A DNA stretch of 38,243 nt from an uncultured Fidelibacterota bacterium (GTDB lineage Bacteria; Fidelibacterota; Marinisomatia; Marinisomatales; TCS55). The first letter of the stretch is position 1. Each line of letters begins with the position of its first letter. The translations under genes and the position numbers were made by a program. Location of the stretch: the NCBI GenBank assembly GCA_902581045.1, contig CACHMU010000009.1, forward strand, positions 1-38,243, read 5' to 3'. This document shows, one piece after another, positions 1-11,278 of this stretch. A model generated the notes under the pieces. The model did no database searches, was not told the origin of the DNA, and saw nothing but the letters and a program-made list of their open reading frames with translations.

Positions 1-2898
1 GCTTTTATTCTTGAAGAGGATGGTCGTCTTACTCAACAAATACTTTATGAATATTTAGGTATGAATCTTTCTTATGCTCCAAGAGTTTGGCATGCTAAAG
101 ATGCAACTACTGGTTTAAGAATGCTTTCTGATAGAAGTTATGATTTAGTTATTGTTATGATGAGAATATCAGATATGGATCCAATAACTTTTGGGGAAAA
201 AGTGAAAAATAATTATCCAGACAAGCCAGTTATACTTTTAGCTTTTGACGAATCAGAAATAACGACGCTACCTTATGAAAGAATGAAAAAAACAATAGAT
301 CAAGTATATATTTGGTCAGGTAATGCAAATGTCTTCCCTGCTATTATAAAAAATATCGAAGATAGAATGAATTTAAAACGAGATTATAATATTGCAGATA
401 TTCGCTCGATAATTATGGTTGAAGATGATCCTCGATATTATTCAATAATTCTTCCCTTATTATATAGAACTGCATTAAAACACGCGAGAGATTTGATAAG
501 CAAAAGTTTTTCGGATACTGATAGACTACTTCTTTTTAGAGCAAGACCAAAAATTATTTTGACATCTACCTACGAAGAAGCGATAGAGATTTATAATCAA
601 TATAGAAACAATATTTTAGGATTTATCTCTGATGTTCGGTTTCCTAAAAAAGGAGTAATGGATTCAGATGCAGGATTAAAGTTAATAAAATATATCAGAA
701 ATAAAGATTCTGACATGCCAGTTTTACTCCAATCAACAAATTCTGAGCATAAAAAACATGCAAAAAAAGTTAATGCTTCATTTATAGATAAAAATTCAAC
801 GACCTTGATGCAAGATCTTGAAAGTTTTATAATCAACAATTTTGGTTTTGGGGACTTTATTTTTCGAGATCGAAAAAGAAATGAAATTTCTAGAGCTAAC
901 AACCTCAAGCAGTTCCAAAAAATACTTAAAACTATTCCATCAAAAACTTTGAGATATCACGCATCAAAAAACCATTTTTCTAATTGGCTAGCAGTGAGAG
1001 GTGAGTTTAATATTGCTTCAAATCTAAGACCTATTAAAATAAGTGATTTTAATAATATAGAAGATTTGCGTAAAGTAATACTTGACCATTTAGAATCTGG
1101 TGTAAATACAAGAAGCAGAAGAAGTTTGGTCCAATACAACGCAGAGTCAAAAGGTGAAGATATTGACTTTGTTAGACTGTCTACTGGTTCGCTAGGGGGC
1201 AAAGCAAGAGGTTTGGCTTTTGCCATAAATTTAATTAATGAGAGTGGCTTAAATAAAAAATTTGATAAAATAAATTTAAGAGTTCCAAAGGTTGCAGTAA
1301 TTGGCACAGATGAATTCGATTATTTTATGAATGAAAACAACTTATGGAAGATTGCATTTGCTAAAAATAAATCAGACAAATCAATCATTAATTCATTCTT
1401 AAAAGGCTCCCTGAGTAAAGAATTAACTAAAACGCTTTCAAAATACCTATCAACTATACGTTTTCCACTTGCGATTCGTTCATCAAGTTTGCTTGAAGAT
1501 TCTCAATACCAACCTTTGGCTGGTATGTATGCAACTTATATGCTACCAAATTCTAATAAGTCAAAAACAATAAGATTAGAAGAACTAACTAAAGCAATAA
1601 AGCTTGTCTATGCATCAACATACTTAAAAGAACCCAAATCTTTAATTGAAGGTTCAGTCCACCATCATGAAGAGGAAAAGATGGCTGTCATCGTTATGGA
1701 GTTAGTTGGAAAATCTCACGCAAATCGCTTTTATCCTTCAGCAAGCGGCTTAGCTCAAAGCTTTAATTATTATCCAGTGTCATATATGAAAAGAAAAGAA
1801 GGTGTAGCATATTTAGCATTGGGACTTGGAAGAACCATCGCAGAAGGCGAAAAATCTCTTAGATTTTCACCCAAGTACCCTGGTATAATCCCTCAATATT
1901 TTTCTGTACGTTCTACAATTGATAATTCTCAAAATCAATTTTATGCATTAGACCTTAATAAAGGAATGAAACTCCTTAAACATGGCTTAGATGAAAATAC
2001 GTCACTATTTGACTTAAATATTGCTGAAAAAGATGGCGAATTAGACTGGTCTGCAAGTGTCGTATCAAATGAAGATAATGTTGTTAGAGATTCACTTCGC
2101 TTTGATGGAACGAGAGTGATCACTTTTCCCTCATTATTAAAATGGAAAACCTTGCCAATAACTGACCTACTATTAGATTTACTAAAGTTGGGTGAATCTT
2201 CCTTAGGATGTCCTGTTGAAATAGAATTTGCAATCAATATGCATGATACTGAAGAAACTTTAACTGATTTTTGCTTATTACAAATTAAACCAATGGTTGT
2301 TGGCGGTTTAGATCGAATACAAGATTTTGATTCTATTCAAAAGAAAAATATTCTATGTAAAAGCTCTGTTGCTTTAGGAAATGGATTAATTGAAAATATC
2401 AATAATTTAATTATTGTAGATCCTAAAAATTTCGATCCAAGTAAAACAAAATTAATTGCTAAACAGATTGAAAAGATTAACAATGAATTAAGTGATCTTG
2501 AACAATATGTACTTATTGGCCCTGGTAGATGGGGATCGGCTGACCCATGGCTTGGAATACCTGTTGAATGGGATCAAATTTCTAAGGCAAAAGTGATTGT
2601 TGAATATGGAATGGATTCATTCCCAGTAGATCCATCATTTGGGAGCCATTTCTTTCAGAATGTAACTTCTATGAGGATAGGATATTTTACTATCAATCAT
2701 AAGAAAAGATCAGACAAGATTGATATGGATTGGATCAATACTCAACAAGTAAAGAAAAAGTCAAAATATATTAAATGGATTAAGCTAGATAAGCCAATTA
2801 CAGTAACAATTGATGGCCAAACAGGTGAGGGAAATATAATTAAGCCCTTAGAGCCAATTGAAGAAAAAATGGATGAACACGAGACTTCAGGAATATAA
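1..2898 (+). CDS. Receiver-receiver-PEP/pyruvate-binding domain signalling protein (5' partial)
   Basis: The frame is open from base 1, so the true start lies just outside the window. The residues before the Met at 61 read as the first strand of a receiver domain. Numbering from that Met, residues 1-105 are a receiver-like fold in which Met33 sits where the phospho-Asp should be, and the conserved Lys is also missing. Residues 113-260 are a second receiver with an acidic pocket (E121, D122, D123), probable phospho-Asp D191, S225/T226 and K244. From about 370 onwards comes a PEP synthase/PPDK N-terminal (ATP-grasp-like) domain, with GSLGGKARGLAF (377-387) and RSSSLLEDS (473-481). The C-terminal part has GPGRWGSADPW (820-830) and GSHFFQN (861-867). 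No phosphohistidine swivel domain and no PEP-utilising TIM barrel is present, so it is not a working PEP synthase. A signalling or phosphotransfer role is inferred; the substrate is unknown. Confidence 0.85.
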   Translation, partial: AFILEEDGRLTQQILYEYLGMNLSYAPRVWHAKDATTGLRMLSDRSYDLVIVMMRISDMDPITFGEKVKNNYPDKPVILLAFDESEITTLPYERMKKTIDQVYIWSGNANVFPAIIKNIEDRMNLKRDYNIADIRSIIMVEDDPRYYSIILPLLYRTALKHARDLISKSFSDTDRLLLFRARPKIILTSTYEEAIEIYNQYRNNILGFISDVRFPKKGVMDSDAGLKLIKYIRNKDSDMPVLLQSTNSEHKKHAKKVNASFIDKNSTTLMQDLESFIINNFGFGDFIFRDRKRNEISRANNLKQFQKILKTIPSKTLRYHASKNHFSNWLAVRGEFNIASNLRPIKISDFNNIEDLRKVILDHLESGVNTRSRRSLVQYNAESKGEDIDFVRLSTGSLGGKARGLAFAINLINESGLNKKFDKINLRVPKVAVIGTDEFDYFMNENNLWKIAFAKNKSDKSIINSFLKGSLSKELTKTLSKYLSTIRFPLAIRSSSLLEDSQYQPLAGMYATYMLPNSNKSKTIRLEELTKAIKLVYASTYLKEPKSLIEGSVHHHEEEKMAVIVMELVGKSHANRFYPSASGLAQSFNYYPVSYMKRKEGVAYLALGLGRTIAEGEKSLRFSPKYPGIIPQYFSVRSTIDNSQNQFYALDLNKGMKLLKHGLDENTSLFDLNIAEKDGELDWSASVVSNEDNVVRDSLRFDGTRVITFPSLLKWKTLPITDLLLDLLKLGESSLGCPVEIEFAINMHDTEETLTDFCLLQIKPMVVGGLDRIQDFDSIQKKNILCKSSVALGNGLIENINNLIIVDPKNFDPSKTKLIAKQIEKINNELSDLEQYVLIGPGRWGSADPWLGIPVEWDQISKAKVIVEYGMDSFPVDPSFGSHFFQNVTSMRIGYFTINHKKRSDKIDMDWINTQQVKKKSKYIKWIKLDKPITVTIDGQTGEGNIIKPLEPIEEKMDEHETSGI

Positions 2899-6158: not shown

Positions 6159-8975
6159 ATGCTTAAGAAAACTCTAAATTTTATTCCATTACTTTTTATC
6201 TTATTCATTGGTTGCAATGAAAGAGAGAAAACCCCATTTAAAATAGATTATGAGAAATATCAATTAGACAATGGTTTGACCATTATTCTCCATGAAGATA
6301 AATCAGATCCAATAGTTGGTATCGCCATACAATATCATGTAGGATCTAATCGTGAAATTCCTGGCAGAACTGGTTTTGCTCATCTATTCGAACATATGTT
6401 ATTCCAAGAATCGCAACATGTAGGTCAAGATCAATTTTTTAAGATCATCCAAAATGCTGGTGGCACATTAAATGGAGGTACTAGCAAAGATGGGACCGTT
6501 TATTATGAGGTCATTCCTAAAAATGCACTTGAAACGGCTCTTTGGTTAGAATCTGATAGAATGGGCTGGCTATTATCAACTGTAACTCAAGCGGCTTTTG
6601 AAAACCAACAAGAGGTTGTTCAAAATGAAAAACGTCAAAGAGTAGATAATCGCCCTTATGGTCATTCAAATTATGTTATGATCAAAAATATGTACCCTGA
6701 AGACCATCCTTATAATTGGACAACAATTGGAGAATTAGAAGATCTGCAAAACGCTACTTTGACTGACGTACGAGAATTTTATGAGCAATGGTATGGCCCT
6801 AATAATGCCACAATGGTAATAGCAGGAGATATTAATAAACGTGAAGTGAAATCTTTAGTAGAAAAATACTTTGGTGAAATTAAACCTGGACCTGATAATG
6901 GTGACCCAGAACCTCAACTAGTTAAACTAAGCAAGACAAAAAAGGTTTACCATGAAGATAATTTTGCACGTTCTCCTCGTTTAACAATGAATTTTGCATC
7001 AGTTGATCAACGTCACTTTGATGCGCCTGCGCTTGAACTACTAGGTCAACTTTTAGGAGATGGTAAAAAATCACCTCTTTATAAAGTTATCGTTGAAGAA
7101 AAAAAATTAGCTCCTTCAGTCTATGCTCGTAGTGGGACTCAAGAAGTTGCGGGTACGTTTGATGTTGTTTTAACAGGATTTCCATCAACAAATCTTACTG
7201 CAGCTGAAAATGCTATTTTTGAAGCATTTGAGCGCTTTGAGATAGATGGTTTTACTACCGAAGATTTAGAAAGATTAAAAGCGAAGTATGAAACAAGTTT
7301 TTATAATGGCATTTCATCTGTGCTCGGTAAGGGATATCAATTAGCATATTACAATGAATACTATGGTTCACCTGATGCAATAGCGGTTGAACTCCAAAAA
7401 GTTCTTGATGTAAATATAAGTGATGTCAAAAGAGTATATGAGAAGTATGTCAAAAATCAAAATTACGTCTTGACGAGTTTTGTTCCCCGAGGTAAAGTTG
7501 ACCTCGTAGCTGACGGGTCTGAATTATTTCCAATTAAAGAAGAGAAAATCGTTAAAAATGTAACTAAGTCAGCAGGGTCTGGCGGAATGGATATTGCTAA
7601 AATACCCTCTACTTTCGATAGATCTTCGAAACCAATAGATGGTCCGCAACCAAGACTTAATCTACCTAAGGTATGGAAACACGATTATGAAAAGGGAATT
7701 GCAATCTATGGAGCAAAACATGATGAATTGCCTCTTGTAAGTTTTGGTATAACTATTGAAGGTGGAATGCTTTTAGATGACCCAAATAAAATTGGAGTAG
7801 CGAATCTTGTTACTGATATCATGATGCAGGGCACTGCAAATAAAACACCAATCGAATTAGAAGAAGCAATTGATGCCCTCGGCTCTTCTATAAATATGTC
7901 TACGGGAAAACAATCAATTAATATCAATGTAAACACTCTAAAAAGAAATTTTTTGCCAACTTTGGCCCTTGTTGAAGAAATACTTTTTGAACCAAGATGG
8001 GATTCCAACGAGTTTGAAAGAGTTAAACGTCAAACCGCTGAATTAATTAAAAGAAGAAGCGCTGTTCCTTCTACAATTGCATCTAGAGTATTTAATAAGT
8101 TGAATTATGGCTCTCATATTCTTGCTAATACAACTCTTGGAACAGTCGAAAGTGTACAGTCAATAAGCCTAGATGATTTGAAAAACTACGTTAATGCTAG
8201 TTTTTCTGTAGATCTAGCTACGATTAGTATCGTAGGAGATATTAGCCGCAGTGAGGCTGTTAATGCCTTTAAAAACATAGTTAATAGATGGGATGCTAAG
8301 GAAGTTGACTTTCCTAACTATCAAATTCCGTCACCAAATAAGAATGCTAAAGTATATTTTGTAGATGTTCCGAATGCTAAGCAATCTGAAATTAGAATAG
8401 GATATTTAGGAATTCCTCGAACGCATGAGGATTTTTATTCGACTACGATTATGAATATGAAACTTGGAGGAAACTTTAGCGGTGATGTGAATATGGTTTT
8501 AAGAGAGGAAAAAGGATTTACATATGGTGCTAGAACGGGCTTTTCTGGATCAAAATTTCCAGGAACTTTTACAGCATCTTCTGCAGTACGATCAAATACA
8601 ACTGAAGAATCAGTTAATATTTTTAAAACACTGTTAACCAATTACAGTAATCCAATTACTGAAGAAGATCTTGAATTCACTAAAAATGTTACTCTAAAAT
8701 CAAATGCTCGCCGCTTTGAAACACTTGGTGCACTTCGAGGAATGATTGCAAATATTGCCACCTATGGTCTTCCCTTTGATTATATAAAAAATGAAGAAGA
8801 TCAAGTCCGTAATATGACGATTCAAAGTCATAATGAATTAGTCAAAAAATATATTCGTCCTGATGAGATGATTTATTTAGTTGTTGGTGATGCAAAAACT
8901 CAAATGGATGGGCTGAAATCTTTAGGATATGGAGATCCAGTTCTACTAAACGAAAACGGCTCTCGAGTTAGATAA
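6159..8975 (+). CDS. M16 family zinc metallopeptidase lipoprotein, two-domain fused form
   Basis: 938 aa. The N-terminus is a lipoprotein signal with lipobox FIGC (Cys19), so it is probably anchored in the envelope facing the periplasm. The first M16 half (about 30-270) has the inverted zinc motif HLFEH (75-79) and the probable third ligand E157 in QNEKRQR, and should be catalytic. A middle M16 C-type domain follows. The second half, from about residue 505 (SFGITIEGGMLLDD), has the same fold but no HxxEH and is structural. One chain therefore combines the active and inactive subunits that some bacteria encode as separate genes. The role is likely degradation of peptides in the envelope. The ATG is supported by AGGAG 7 nt upstream, and a terminator follows at 9003-9035. 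Confidence 0.92.
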   Translation: MLKKTLNFIPLLFILFIGCNEREKTPFKIDYEKYQLDNGLTIILHEDKSDPIVGIAIQYHVGSNREIPGRTGFAHLFEHMLFQESQHVGQDQFFKIIQNAGGTLNGGTSKDGTVYYEVIPKNALETALWLESDRMGWLLSTVTQAAFENQQEVVQNEKRQRVDNRPYGHSNYVMIKNMYPEDHPYNWTTIGELEDLQNATLTDVREFYEQWYGPNNATMVIAGDINKREVKSLVEKYFGEIKPGPDNGDPEPQLVKLSKTKKVYHEDNFARSPRLTMNFASVDQRHFDAPALELLGQLLGDGKKSPLYKVIVEEKKLAPSVYARSGTQEVAGTFDVVLTGFPSTNLTAAENAIFEAFERFEIDGFTTEDLERLKAKYETSFYNGISSVLGKGYQLAYYNEYYGSPDAIAVELQKVLDVNISDVKRVYEKYVKNQNYVLTSFVPRGKVDLVADGSELFPIKEEKIVKNVTKSAGSGGMDIAKIPSTFDRSSKPIDGPQPRLNLPKVWKHDYEKGIAIYGAKHDELPLVSFGITIEGGMLLDDPNKIGVANLVTDIMMQGTANKTPIELEEAIDALGSSINMSTGKQSININVNTLKRNFLPTLALVEEILFEPRWDSNEFERVKRQTAELIKRRSAVPSTIASRVFNKLNYGSHILANTTLGTVESVQSISLDDLKNYVNASFSVDLATISIVGDISRSEAVNAFKNIVNRWDAKEVDFPNYQIPSPNKNAKVYFVDVPNAKQSEIRIGYLGIPRTHEDFYSTTIMNMKLGGNFSGDVNMVLREEKGFTYGARTGFSGSKFPGTFTASSAVRSNTTEESVNIFKTLLTNYSNPITEEDLEFTKNVTLKSNARRFETLGALRGMIANIATYGLPFDYIKNEEDQVRNMTIQSHNELVKKYIRPDEMIYLVVGDAKTQMDGLKSLGYGDPVLLNENGSRVR

Positions 8976-9043: not shown

Positions 9044-10510
9044 ATGAATTCAATTCTATCAATAAATCAGTGGACGTTATTTGTAATAATATTTGTTTCA
9101 ATATTTATTGTATTGGGGCTAGCTGAATTCATAAGAAACTATTTCAAAAGGCCCCCTGAATCGACCCGTAAATTTGTCCATATTTTCATAGGTTTAATAA
9201 TATGTTTTTGCCCGATACTATTTAAAGTTAATTATCAGATAATTGTCTTATCTTCCTTATTTATAGTAATTAATACATATCTTTTATTGTCTAAAAAATT
9301 TAAAAGCATGAATGCTACTTCACGAAAGAGCTACGGAACGATATATTTCCCTTGTTCAGTTTTAATCTTGTCTTTTTTCTGGTGGGATAAGCCGATCTCA
9401 TTTATCTTATCAATCCTTGTTTTAACTCTTGCAGATCCAATTGCTGCAATATTTGGATCTCAACAAAATTATAAATTCACACCTTGGATTGATAAAAAGT
9501 CGATTCGAGGCTCATCAGCAATGTTTACCTCTTCATTCTTTATAATTCTATTAGGTACTGATCTATTATTAAAATATTATGGTTCGAATTATTCGATTCC
9601 AATACCAGTATTACTTGGGCTTGCCATATTTACTGCATTTTCAGCTACTTTAAGTGAATTAGTAAGCTATAGGGGATCTGATAACCTTTCTATACCAATT
9701 ATCACATTTTTATCTTACGAGATATACTTAATTAATTTTACACATGGAAACTTAACCAGTTTGATAATTTGGACTTTTTTATCAATTATTATTTTCACAA
9801 TTGCTTATAAACAAAAGTCATTATCACTTAGCGGGGCAATTGGAGGGTACCTATTGGGAATGATTATTTTTGGATCTGGAGGATGGAATTGGATTATACC
9901 TCTCATATTCTTCTTTATATCATCATCTATATTGTCACATTTTAATCGTAAAGAAAAATCTCAAAGAAATCTATTGCAAATCCTTTCAAATGGTGGTTTA
10001 GCAACTATTTTTGCCATCGAGAATATCTTTATAAAATCATCATTTTCTTTAATCTTTTATTTAAGTGCTATTGCTGCTGCTACAGCAGATACTTGGGGAA
10101 CTGAAGTTGGTTTTCATTCAAGATCAAAACCCAAACTTATTTTCTCTAAAAAACTTGTTCCAAAAGGAACATCAGGTAGCATTACTTTATTAGGTACAAT
10201 TGGTTCAATTATAGGAGCCATATTAATTGCAGTTTTGGGTCAAATAATTTTTAGTCATAAAAATATCTTCTTGCCGATAGCAATTGCTGGAATTAGTGGC
10301 TCAGTATTTGATTCTTTTTTAGGAAGATTTTTTCAGGCAAAGTATTTATGTAAAGAGTGTGGTGAACATTCTGAGGGCAATAACCATTGTGATTTACCTG
10401 CATTAAGGATAAGCGGTTTAAAAGTAATTGATAATAATATGGTAAATTTTTTAAATACTTTATGTGGTGGAATTATGGGATATTTTTTTTGGACTATAGT
10501 AAATCAATAA
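9044..10510 (+). CDS. Phytol/dolichol-kinase-like domain fused to a DUF92 (VTE6-like) domain, integral membrane
   Basis: 488 aa, almost entirely membrane segments. Residues 1-255 resemble the polyprenol kinase/CTP-dependent family (dolichol kinase, VTE5 phytol kinase). Motifs are RPPESTRKFVHIFIGL (36-51), LADPIAAIFG (129-138), KKSIRGSSAMF (151-161) and SELVSYRGSDNLSIP (204-218). Residues 260-488 are DUF92, with SGAIGGYLLGMIIFG, QILSNGGLATIFA (312-324), AAATADTWGTEVG (344-356), VPKGTSGSITLLGTIGS (372-388) and a late CKEC...HC cluster. In plants and cyanobacteria VTE5 phosphorylates phytol and DUF92/VTE6 phosphorylates phytyl phosphate. The fusion therefore suggests stepwise conversion of an isoprenoid alcohol to its diphosphate; the substrate is inferred. 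No Shine-Dalgarno is visible, and the start lies just behind the M16 terminator. Confidence 0.82.
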   Translation: MNSILSINQWTLFVIIFVSIFIVLGLAEFIRNYFKRPPESTRKFVHIFIGLIICFCPILFKVNYQIIVLSSLFIVINTYLLLSKKFKSMNATSRKSYGTIYFPCSVLILSFFWWDKPISFILSILVLTLADPIAAIFGSQQNYKFTPWIDKKSIRGSSAMFTSSFFIILLGTDLLLKYYGSNYSIPIPVLLGLAIFTAFSATLSELVSYRGSDNLSIPIITFLSYEIYLINFTHGNLTSLIIWTFLSIIIFTIAYKQKSLSLSGAIGGYLLGMIIFGSGGWNWIIPLIFFFISSSILSHFNRKEKSQRNLLQILSNGGLATIFAIENIFIKSSFSLIFYLSAIAAATADTWGTEVGFHSRSKPKLIFSKKLVPKGTSGSITLLGTIGSIIGAILIAVLGQIIFSHKNIFLPIAIAGISGSVFDSFLGRFFQAKYLCKECGEHSEGNNHCDLPALRISGLKVIDNNMVNFLNTLCGGIMGYFFWTIVNQ

Positions 10511-10813: not shown

Positions 10814-11278
10814 TTACAATGTTTCAATTGAATTTTTTATCAATCGCATAAAACCAGCAGTATCAATCTTTCCATCTGTAAGTTGGCGTACTTGCTCTGC
10901 AGTCGCTTTAGCGGTGATAATTGTATTTTCTCTTGATAAAGGGATTACCACTGACACAGCGGTATTACCTGGAATAACAGGCGAATATCCCGGTTTTTTC
11001 TTTGCAAATGATTGCTGATGGTTTATAGCTTGACCTACAGAAATGAATGCGACAAGCATTGGCATTTCAAAATTGTTTCTGGTAGTACTTTCCAATTCAA
11101 TTGAAAAGCTATAAGAACCATCAAGATTCTGTGTTAAAATCATTTTTTTCTCATCGACAGATATACGATAAAACTTACACGTATTTGCTACCTTCCGATA
11201 AAAAGCATAATTTGCTGATAGAGTCTGTGTCCCCATCAAAAGAACAATAGATAATATGAGAATTTTTCTTAAGTTCAT
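10814..11278 (-). CDS. Secreted protein of unknown family
   Basis: 154 aa. The N-terminus MNLRKILILSIVLLMGTQ followed by TLSA is a Sec signal peptide with probable cleavage near residue 22. The mature part (about 130 aa) has strand-like alternation (SYSFSIELESTTRN, then TAVSVVIPLSRENTIITAKA) and a helical C-terminus (GFMRLIKNSIETL), with a single Cys in ANTCKFY. I recognise no family. It is the first gene of a two-gene unit with the DUF350-like membrane protein 12 nt downstream, which suggests a shared envelope function. hutI lies 59 nt upstream in the same direction, so readthrough from the hut genes is possible. Confidence 0.72.
   Translation of the reverse strand: MNLRKILILSIVLLMGTQTLSANYAFYRKVANTCKFYRISVDEKKMILTQNLDGSYSFSIELESTTRNNFEMPMLVAFISVGQAINHQQSFAKKKPGYSPVIPGNTAVSVVIPLSRENTIITAKATAEQVRQLTDGKIDTAGFMRLIKNSIETL

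Follow-up and report, generated by a model that had tools for sequence, protein, structure and literature searches.

A bacterial fusion of a CdsA/SEC59-superfamily domain with DUF92, predicted to phosphorylate isoprenoid alcohols in two steps

Can a single bacterial membrane protein perform both phosphorylations that lead from an isoprenoid alcohol to its diphosphate? The question is raised by an ATG-initiated frame of 488 codons, free of internal stops by the ORF list and its translation, on the stretch of DNA analysed here (38,243 nucleotides; hereafter the window), which is contig C9 of a 943-kb genome that is 58.5% complete. A sequence-only reading of the window had proposed that this frame fuses a phytol/dolichol-kinase-like domain to a DUF92 (VTE6-like) domain and serves the salvage of alcohols such as phytol. 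Judging from comparisons of the sequence with its relatives, we consider it fairly probable that one membrane enzyme does carry out both recycling steps, first a VTE5-like and then a VTE6-like one. The features discussed below are collected in Table 1.

Table 1. Features of the fused gene and its product, with window positions and the basis of each assignment
Feature	Position	Strand	Basis
Fused protein, PF01148-superfamily N-half and DUF92 C-half, 488 amino acids	9044..10510	+	ORF, relatives, AlphaFold2
N-half (residues 1-237), predicted CTP-dependent isoprenoid-alcohol kinase, SEC59/VTE5/CdsA (PF01148) superfamily	9044..9754	+	Profile links, structure rows
LADPIAAIFG...DKKSIRGSS, residues 129-158, with D131	9428..9517	+	Conservation; CdsA alignment
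RGSDNLSIP, residues 210-218, with second invariant aspartate D213	9671..9697	+	DN..P-type pattern
DUF92 domain (PF01940; COG1836/VTE6 family), residues 246-475, predicted isoprenyl-monophosphate kinase	9779..10468	+	Pfam match
AATADTWGTEVG ... GTSGS, residues 345-379, D349 invariant	10076..10180	+	Conservation
CxxC-x8-HC cluster in DUF92 (C436, C439, H448, C449)	10349..10390	+	Pattern counts

The product of the gene is one membrane protein with two domains. No other ORF of at least 100 amino acids overlaps the frame on either strand in the ORF list, and the one reverse frame that was translated contains many stops. Sequence comparison shows that the fused protein is kept at full length in relatives, the closest named of which are Candidatus Neomarinimicrobiota metagenome-assembled genomes (MAGs; 94% identity in L022). 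The AlphaFold2 model of the whole chain is confident and mostly helical (pLDDT 86.6, pTM 0.87). The two separate motif sets described earlier are both present, with LADPIAAIFG starting at residue 129, KSIRGSS at 152, AATADTWGTEVG at 345 and GTSGS at 375. We aligned 38 distinct fused sequences, counting the window's own protein and excluding frames shorter than 440 amino acids (L008-L010). All 38 keep D131, G156, E205, D213, N214 and P218 in the first half and D349, T350, W351, E354, G375, S377, G378 and D423 in the second. Because these key residues are invariant, the quoted motifs are not chance. In a PDB sequence search the whole protein retrieved only ArnA, at chance level (E 0.55), and in Foldseek its model ranked an unrelated transporter first (E 0.085) and CdsA second (E 0.21). 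An internal duplication, by which the two halves would be homologous, is not supported, since the hhalign probability between them was 3.1 with the 38 fused sequences and 10.4 with larger sets, versus 12.9 for a reversed control.

The assignment of the C-half to DUF92 is secure. PF01940 matches residues 246-475 with an E-value of 7.4e-59 (3.0e-60 in the genome scan) and 199.6 bits against a curated cut-off of 27.5. The NCBIfam model TIGR00297, a hypothetical equivalog with a cut-off of 205.85 bits, was missed by both the whole protein (101.4 bits) and the C-half (109.2 bits), which places the C-half in the wide DUF92/COG1836 family, outside the narrow TIGR00297 group. COG1836, which equals pfam01940, has been linked to the cytidylyltransferase-like group by HHpred (PMC5898192). 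It contains VTE6, the phytyl-phosphate kinase (PMC9782597), and has been filed under "phytol-phosphate metabolism" (PMC3223725). The conserved aspartates of the family have been assigned to a cytidylyltransferase-like centre (PMC5898192), and by our own mapping D349 and D423 would be these aspartates.

Modelled alone, the C-half reached a pLDDT of 86.1. Its best structural row was 5guf (Z 6.7, modest for helical proteins; rmsd 3.9, 121 aligned), titled an intramembrane enzyme of archaeal membrane lipid biosynthesis, which we take to be CarS, the CDP-archaeol synthase. CdsA rows followed with Z 5.4 and 5.3 (rmsd 3.3), tied with unrelated TRIC channels at Z 5.8-5.3. Foldseek placed CdsA at ranks 1-3 (E 0.14-0.38), and hhalign between the C-half and CdsA gave nothing (probability 1.2). 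We regard the structural link to CdsA and CarS as suggestive only. These same rows are what would speak for a kinase joined to a cytidylyltransferase, in which a lipid phosphate produced by the N-half would be converted to a CDP-lipid by the DUF92 half, as CdsA or CarS would do. We hold that arrangement to be quite improbable, given the tie with TRIC channels and the report that VTE6, the one characterised member of the family, is a kinase (PMC9782597). The DUF92 half also carries a CxxC-x8-HC cluster, found in 37 of the 38 fused Neomarinimicrobiota sequences, in the Bacilli C-half, in 12 of 23 archaeal C-halves (L121-L143) and in 4/4 of the stand-alone DUF92 proteins of family f25, and in 0/14 proteins tested from the order that includes the Tissierellales MAG L027. 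It looks like an optional, possible metal site.

For the N-half, the proposed kinship with phytol and dolichol kinases stood at the level of the superfamily and failed as a direct match to PF01148. As a single sequence, residues 1-237 gave no Pfam or NCBIfam match above cut-off, and PF01148 was not listed for the window's N-half at E <= 10; the family match predicted for residues 1-255 thus appears only with profiles. Among 26 N-halves from Neomarinimicrobiota, Firmicutes and Bathyarchaeota, PF01148 directly matches three (best E 5.2e-5), and the unrelated model SPW matches more of them (six; best E 0.013). With hhalign, a profile of 38 N-halves was linked to 12 CdsA-type proteins (E 1.2e-7, probability 94) and to ten proteins of about 190 amino acids, the closest profile to the N-half (E 2.4e-20, probability 99.3), while the reversed controls were negative (0.31 for the reversed N-half profile against the CdsA-type proteins, and 0.032). 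In the CdsA alignment the D..A..G...KS..G motif is matched, LADPIAAIFG...DKKSIRGSS lying against TDTFAYIIG...SPKKSVEG, and D131 would be a metal-binding aspartate. Nine positions (R42, H46, G98, D131, G156, E205, D213, N214, P218) are invariant across the 26 N-halves. As loose patterns, D..A..G...KS..GS occurs in 34 of 38 N-halves and DN..P in all 38; we take both to be typical of the SEC59/VTE5 group of polyprenol kinases.

The proteins of about 190 amino acids (L117, L071, L075) are of the PF01148 type and presumably SEC59/VTE5-like by motif. They are shorter than the N-half, stand alone and lie in another neighbourhood. L117 exceeds the PF01148 cut-off (25.5 versus 24 bits), scoring 5.5e-66 with the profile of its own family and 4.7e-9 with that of the N-half. 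When the profile of 26 N-halves was run over 13 genomes it found matches in 11, and its weak matches in three of them (4e-6 in G033, contig C74; 9e-5 in G036, contig C8; 9e-4 in G022, contig C136) coincide with the matches of PF01148 itself. The archaeal N-partner L120 reaches PF01148 at 7e-5 (23.2 bits against the cut-off of 24) and DUF92 at 1e-4, also just below cut-off, and is the only N-partner that matches both. In the structure comparison of the N-half, the CdsA entries 4q2g (Z 8.4, rmsd 4.4, 167 aligned) and 4q2e (Z 8.1, rmsd 4.7, 157 aligned) took the first two places among 973 aligned chains, with Z values modest for helical proteins. The N-half profile found no match in a PDB sequence search, and the structure lists contain neither a dolichol kinase nor a phytol kinase. 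On the strength of the profile links, the L117 match and the top CdsA structure rows, the N-half belongs, at profile level and distantly, to the superfamily that comprises CdsA and, according to published work, SEC59. With CdsA (CDP-diacylglycerol synthase, PF01148) it shares the D..A..G...K(S/T)..G motif and may share the fold; CdsA is a cytidylyltransferase, whereas the N-half is a predicted kinase.

Are the two halves kept together elsewhere? Near-full-length matches to the fusion were found in 29 of 41 genomes (counting that of the window) and, among the 23 best genomes, in 18, so that it is common but not universal. DUF92 is present in 154 of 245 genomes of the phylum Neomarinimicrobiota, and among the matches listed 135 of 150 lie in open frames of 482-590 amino acids, the size of the fusion; presence of the N-half was confirmed by alignment in 38 proteins. 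Family f25 differs, with five genomes in which DUF92 occupies frames of 276-300 amino acids. No N-half was found within about 4 kb of DUF92 in four of these genomes, and elsewhere in the genome there are only distant relatives of about 190 amino acids. In the order of the Tissierellales MAG L027, 60 sampled genomes gave 14 DUF92 genes, eight of them fused and six with the N-half gene adjacent upstream. The two genes are also adjacent in a Bacilli locus (L030) and are divergent neighbours in two Bathyarchaeota loci (L028, L029). In the archaeal phylum of L029, DUF92 occurs in 55 of 151 genomes, with no frame of fusion length among the matches listed and an N-half nearby in only 2 of 24 loci; a Sulfolobus control genome had no DUF92 match. 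The fusion itself occurs in Neomarinimicrobiota and Firmicutes. Fusion or adjacency in 14/14 cases in the Tissierellales order argues for two consecutive steps, and from the recurrence of this linkage in unrelated phyla we consider such a sequence of steps, as first proposed, likely.

We infer the following course of events. The N-half, SEC59/VTE5-like, would use CTP to phosphorylate a free isoprenoid alcohol, recycled from turnover or taken from outside, and so yield the monophosphate. The monophosphate would be handed over directly to the DUF92 half, which, like VTE6, would add the second phosphate, and the diphosphate would then enter menaquinone, carotenoid or longer-chain synthesis. The substrate would most likely be of C15-C20 length, namely farnesol or geranylgeraniol; phytol is a possible substrate as well, and nothing favours it over these two. 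CTP is the presumed donor by analogy with VTE5, FOLK and VTE6 (PMC9782597).

FastTree phylogenies built from 55 sets, fused or paired (L026 was excluded; its frame ends early and has many N), bear on how the fusion arose. The Neomarinimicrobiota fusions form one clade and the Firmicute fusions another, beside the split pairs of Firmicutes. Support in the combined tree is 0.997 and 0.994 for two Firmicute groups, 0.705 for their union and 0.824 for the union with the Bacilli pair. The trees of single halves are weaker. In the N-half tree the Firmicute fusions have 0.559 and the Neomarinimicrobiota 0.553, with one archaeal N-half among the Firmicutes, and in the C-half tree the Firmicute union has only 0.104. 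Either two fusions or a single fusion plus a fission would fit. More speculatively, and with somewhat less than even confidence, we suggest that a single polypeptide makes C15-C20 diphosphates through two CdsA-like sites with intramembrane hand-over, that it arose at least twice (in Neomarinimicrobiota and in Firmicutes) from a conserved gene pair, and that it fills the place of the missing polyprenol-salvage genes of non-phototrophic bacteria.

A Methanosarcina fusion of similar build was reportedly described in 2015 by Makarova, Galperin and Koonin. In Methanosarcina barkeri Mbar_A3310 (arCOG02245/COG1836) an N-terminal COG0170/SEC59-like domain was recognised by HHpred at 99.85% (PMC5898192, 2015), and the same paper notes conserved aspartates and linkage to uppS and predicts an isoprenoid step for which kinase activity would be needed. 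By that published description, the archaeal protein and the bacterial fusion of the window have the same two domains in the same order and the same predicted kinase-requiring step. The architecture is not new, because it is already in print for Methanosarcina (PMC5898192). The bacterial fusions of Neomarinimicrobiota and Firmicutes are not mentioned in section 11 of that paper, and a search, incomplete in that most subscription papers were outside its reach, found no earlier report of them among the papers listed. The window's fusion is plausible and not surprising, a widespread bacterial case of a known architecture.

The same protein may be set beside VTE5 and VTE6 of plants and cyanobacteria. 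The C-half lies in the VTE6 family (COG1836/PF01940), and the N-half, at profile level, in the wide superfamily to which we assign VTE5 as well. VTE5 and VTE6 take two consecutive steps, as predicted for the fusion, but they are two separate genes and the fusion is one polypeptide; and while their hosts are plants and cyanobacteria, the stretches read from the window's bacterium give no hint of phototrophy. VTE5 itself has modest similarity to dolichol kinase (PMC9782597). Proven genes for polyprenol and polyprenyl-phosphate kinases are few and come from photosynthetic organisms (PMC9782597, a 2022 review), and a prenol kinase of malaria parasites was added in 2024 (PMC10849223). With a compact bacterial fusion, both steps could conveniently be tested on one gene and, if the prediction is true, non-phototrophs including Neomarinimicrobiota would gain a salvage route beside the MEP pathway.

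Gene neighbourhoods bear on which alcohol would be used. Squalene/phytoene synthase lies directly upstream of the gene pair in two of six split Firmicute loci (L027/L057, L058). Among 20 neighbours in nine Neomarinimicrobiota loci (the scan was made without loci L036 and L038) no isoprenoid gene was recognised; they include RmuC, MoxR, DUF58, PPK2, methyltransferases and others, and a conserved isoprenoid neighbourhood is ruled out for these 20 neighbours in nine loci. In the family to which the window belongs, the fusion has as neighbours genes for an M16 peptidase, a 154-aa protein, an amidohydrolase and urocanase. The squalene/phytoene synthase in two loci, together with the tight DUF92 link, also argues against a reading that makes the N-half a counterpart of DGK1, presumably a CTP-dependent diacylglycerol kinase, and the fusion a part of phospholipid turnover. 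That reading is consistent with membership of the same superfamily as CdsA, and we judge it very unlikely.

Phytol salvage proper, in which phytol from algal chlorophyll becomes phytyl diphosphate as by plant VTE5 and VTE6, draws on the fact that the relatives of the fused protein are MAGs of Neomarinimicrobiota, a marine group. VTE5 and VTE6 do act on the phytol route (PMC9782597, PMC5694494). The same pair, however, occurs in the Tissierellales order and in a Bacilli MAG, with squalene/phytoene synthase beside it at two Firmicute loci; no chlorophyll-related gene is found among the neighbours scanned, and no specific use of phytyl diphosphate was identified in the incomplete genome. On this evidence the earlier proposal of phytol as the substrate is not supported, and we consider phytol salvage unlikely. 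Equally unlikely, in our view, is a kinase of long-chain lipid carriers, with the N-half acting on undecaprenol or polyprenol in the manner of dolichol kinase and the DUF92 half on the carrier phosphate, for envelope glycans. Since carriers of this kind work in the monophosphate form, a second kinase would be hard to explain. The two loci with squalene/phytoene synthase point instead to C15/C20, and no UppS signature, by a pattern of our own, was seen in 24 DUF92 loci of the phylum of L029, within flanks of about 1.5 kb. What recommends this alternative is that SEC59 is the closest relative of the N-domain in the archaeal fusion and that DUF92 neighbours uppS in archaea (PMC5898192).

The genomes hold users for the diphosphate that the two-step enzyme would make. 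Dxr is present in 40 of 41 genomes, the window's included, and UbiA-family enzymes in 41/41. PF00494 is found in 8 of 41, again including the window's genome, where this CrtB-like gene adjoins a CrtI-type desaturase that is over its NCBIfam cut-off, and a prenyltransferase there is above the TIGR00751 MenA cut-off. Dxr, phytoene synthase and desaturase, and the MenA-like gene, which also weigh against phytol as the substrate, imply that the cell makes prenyl diphosphates de novo and consumes them, and salvage would supplement this supply. Phytoene synthase is no obligate partner, and the fusion is not tied to carotenoids, as PF00494 is in 8/41 genomes versus 29/41 for the fusion. PF01148 matches occur in 38 of 41 genomes, most relatives having a separate CdsA-length gene; the window's genome, at 58.5% completeness, gave no PF01148 match.

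Several minor observations were made along the way. The MenA-like prenyltransferase of the window's genome (L116:2454-3728, plus strand, own contig C17) has an N-terminal PAS domain (PF13426, 2.5e-11, residues 8-102; UbiA at 142-388). UbiA frames of about 430 amino acids recur in several relatives, and PAS-MenA fusions could be widespread in Neomarinimicrobiota. In the window, the M16 peptidase gene (6159-8975, plus strand) ends 69 bases upstream of the fusion on the same strand; M16-like ORFs occur in 14 fetched loci, duplicates counted, and co-transcription with the fusion is possible in part of the family. The 154-aa protein (10814-11278, minus strand) has no Pfam match or convincing NCBIfam match, and ORFs like it occur in 25 fetched loci, a count that includes duplicates of one place. 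At the 5' end of the window, a single ORF open at that end (1-2898, plus strand) joins a response regulator, DUF5752 and PPDK_N. The stand-alone PF01148-type proteins of about 190 amino acids in Neomarinimicrobiota are encoded at L071:1501-2067, L075:1486-2076 and L117:1209-1781, and the one in L071 lies behind the genes for ribulose-phosphate 3-epimerase and a PASTA protein.
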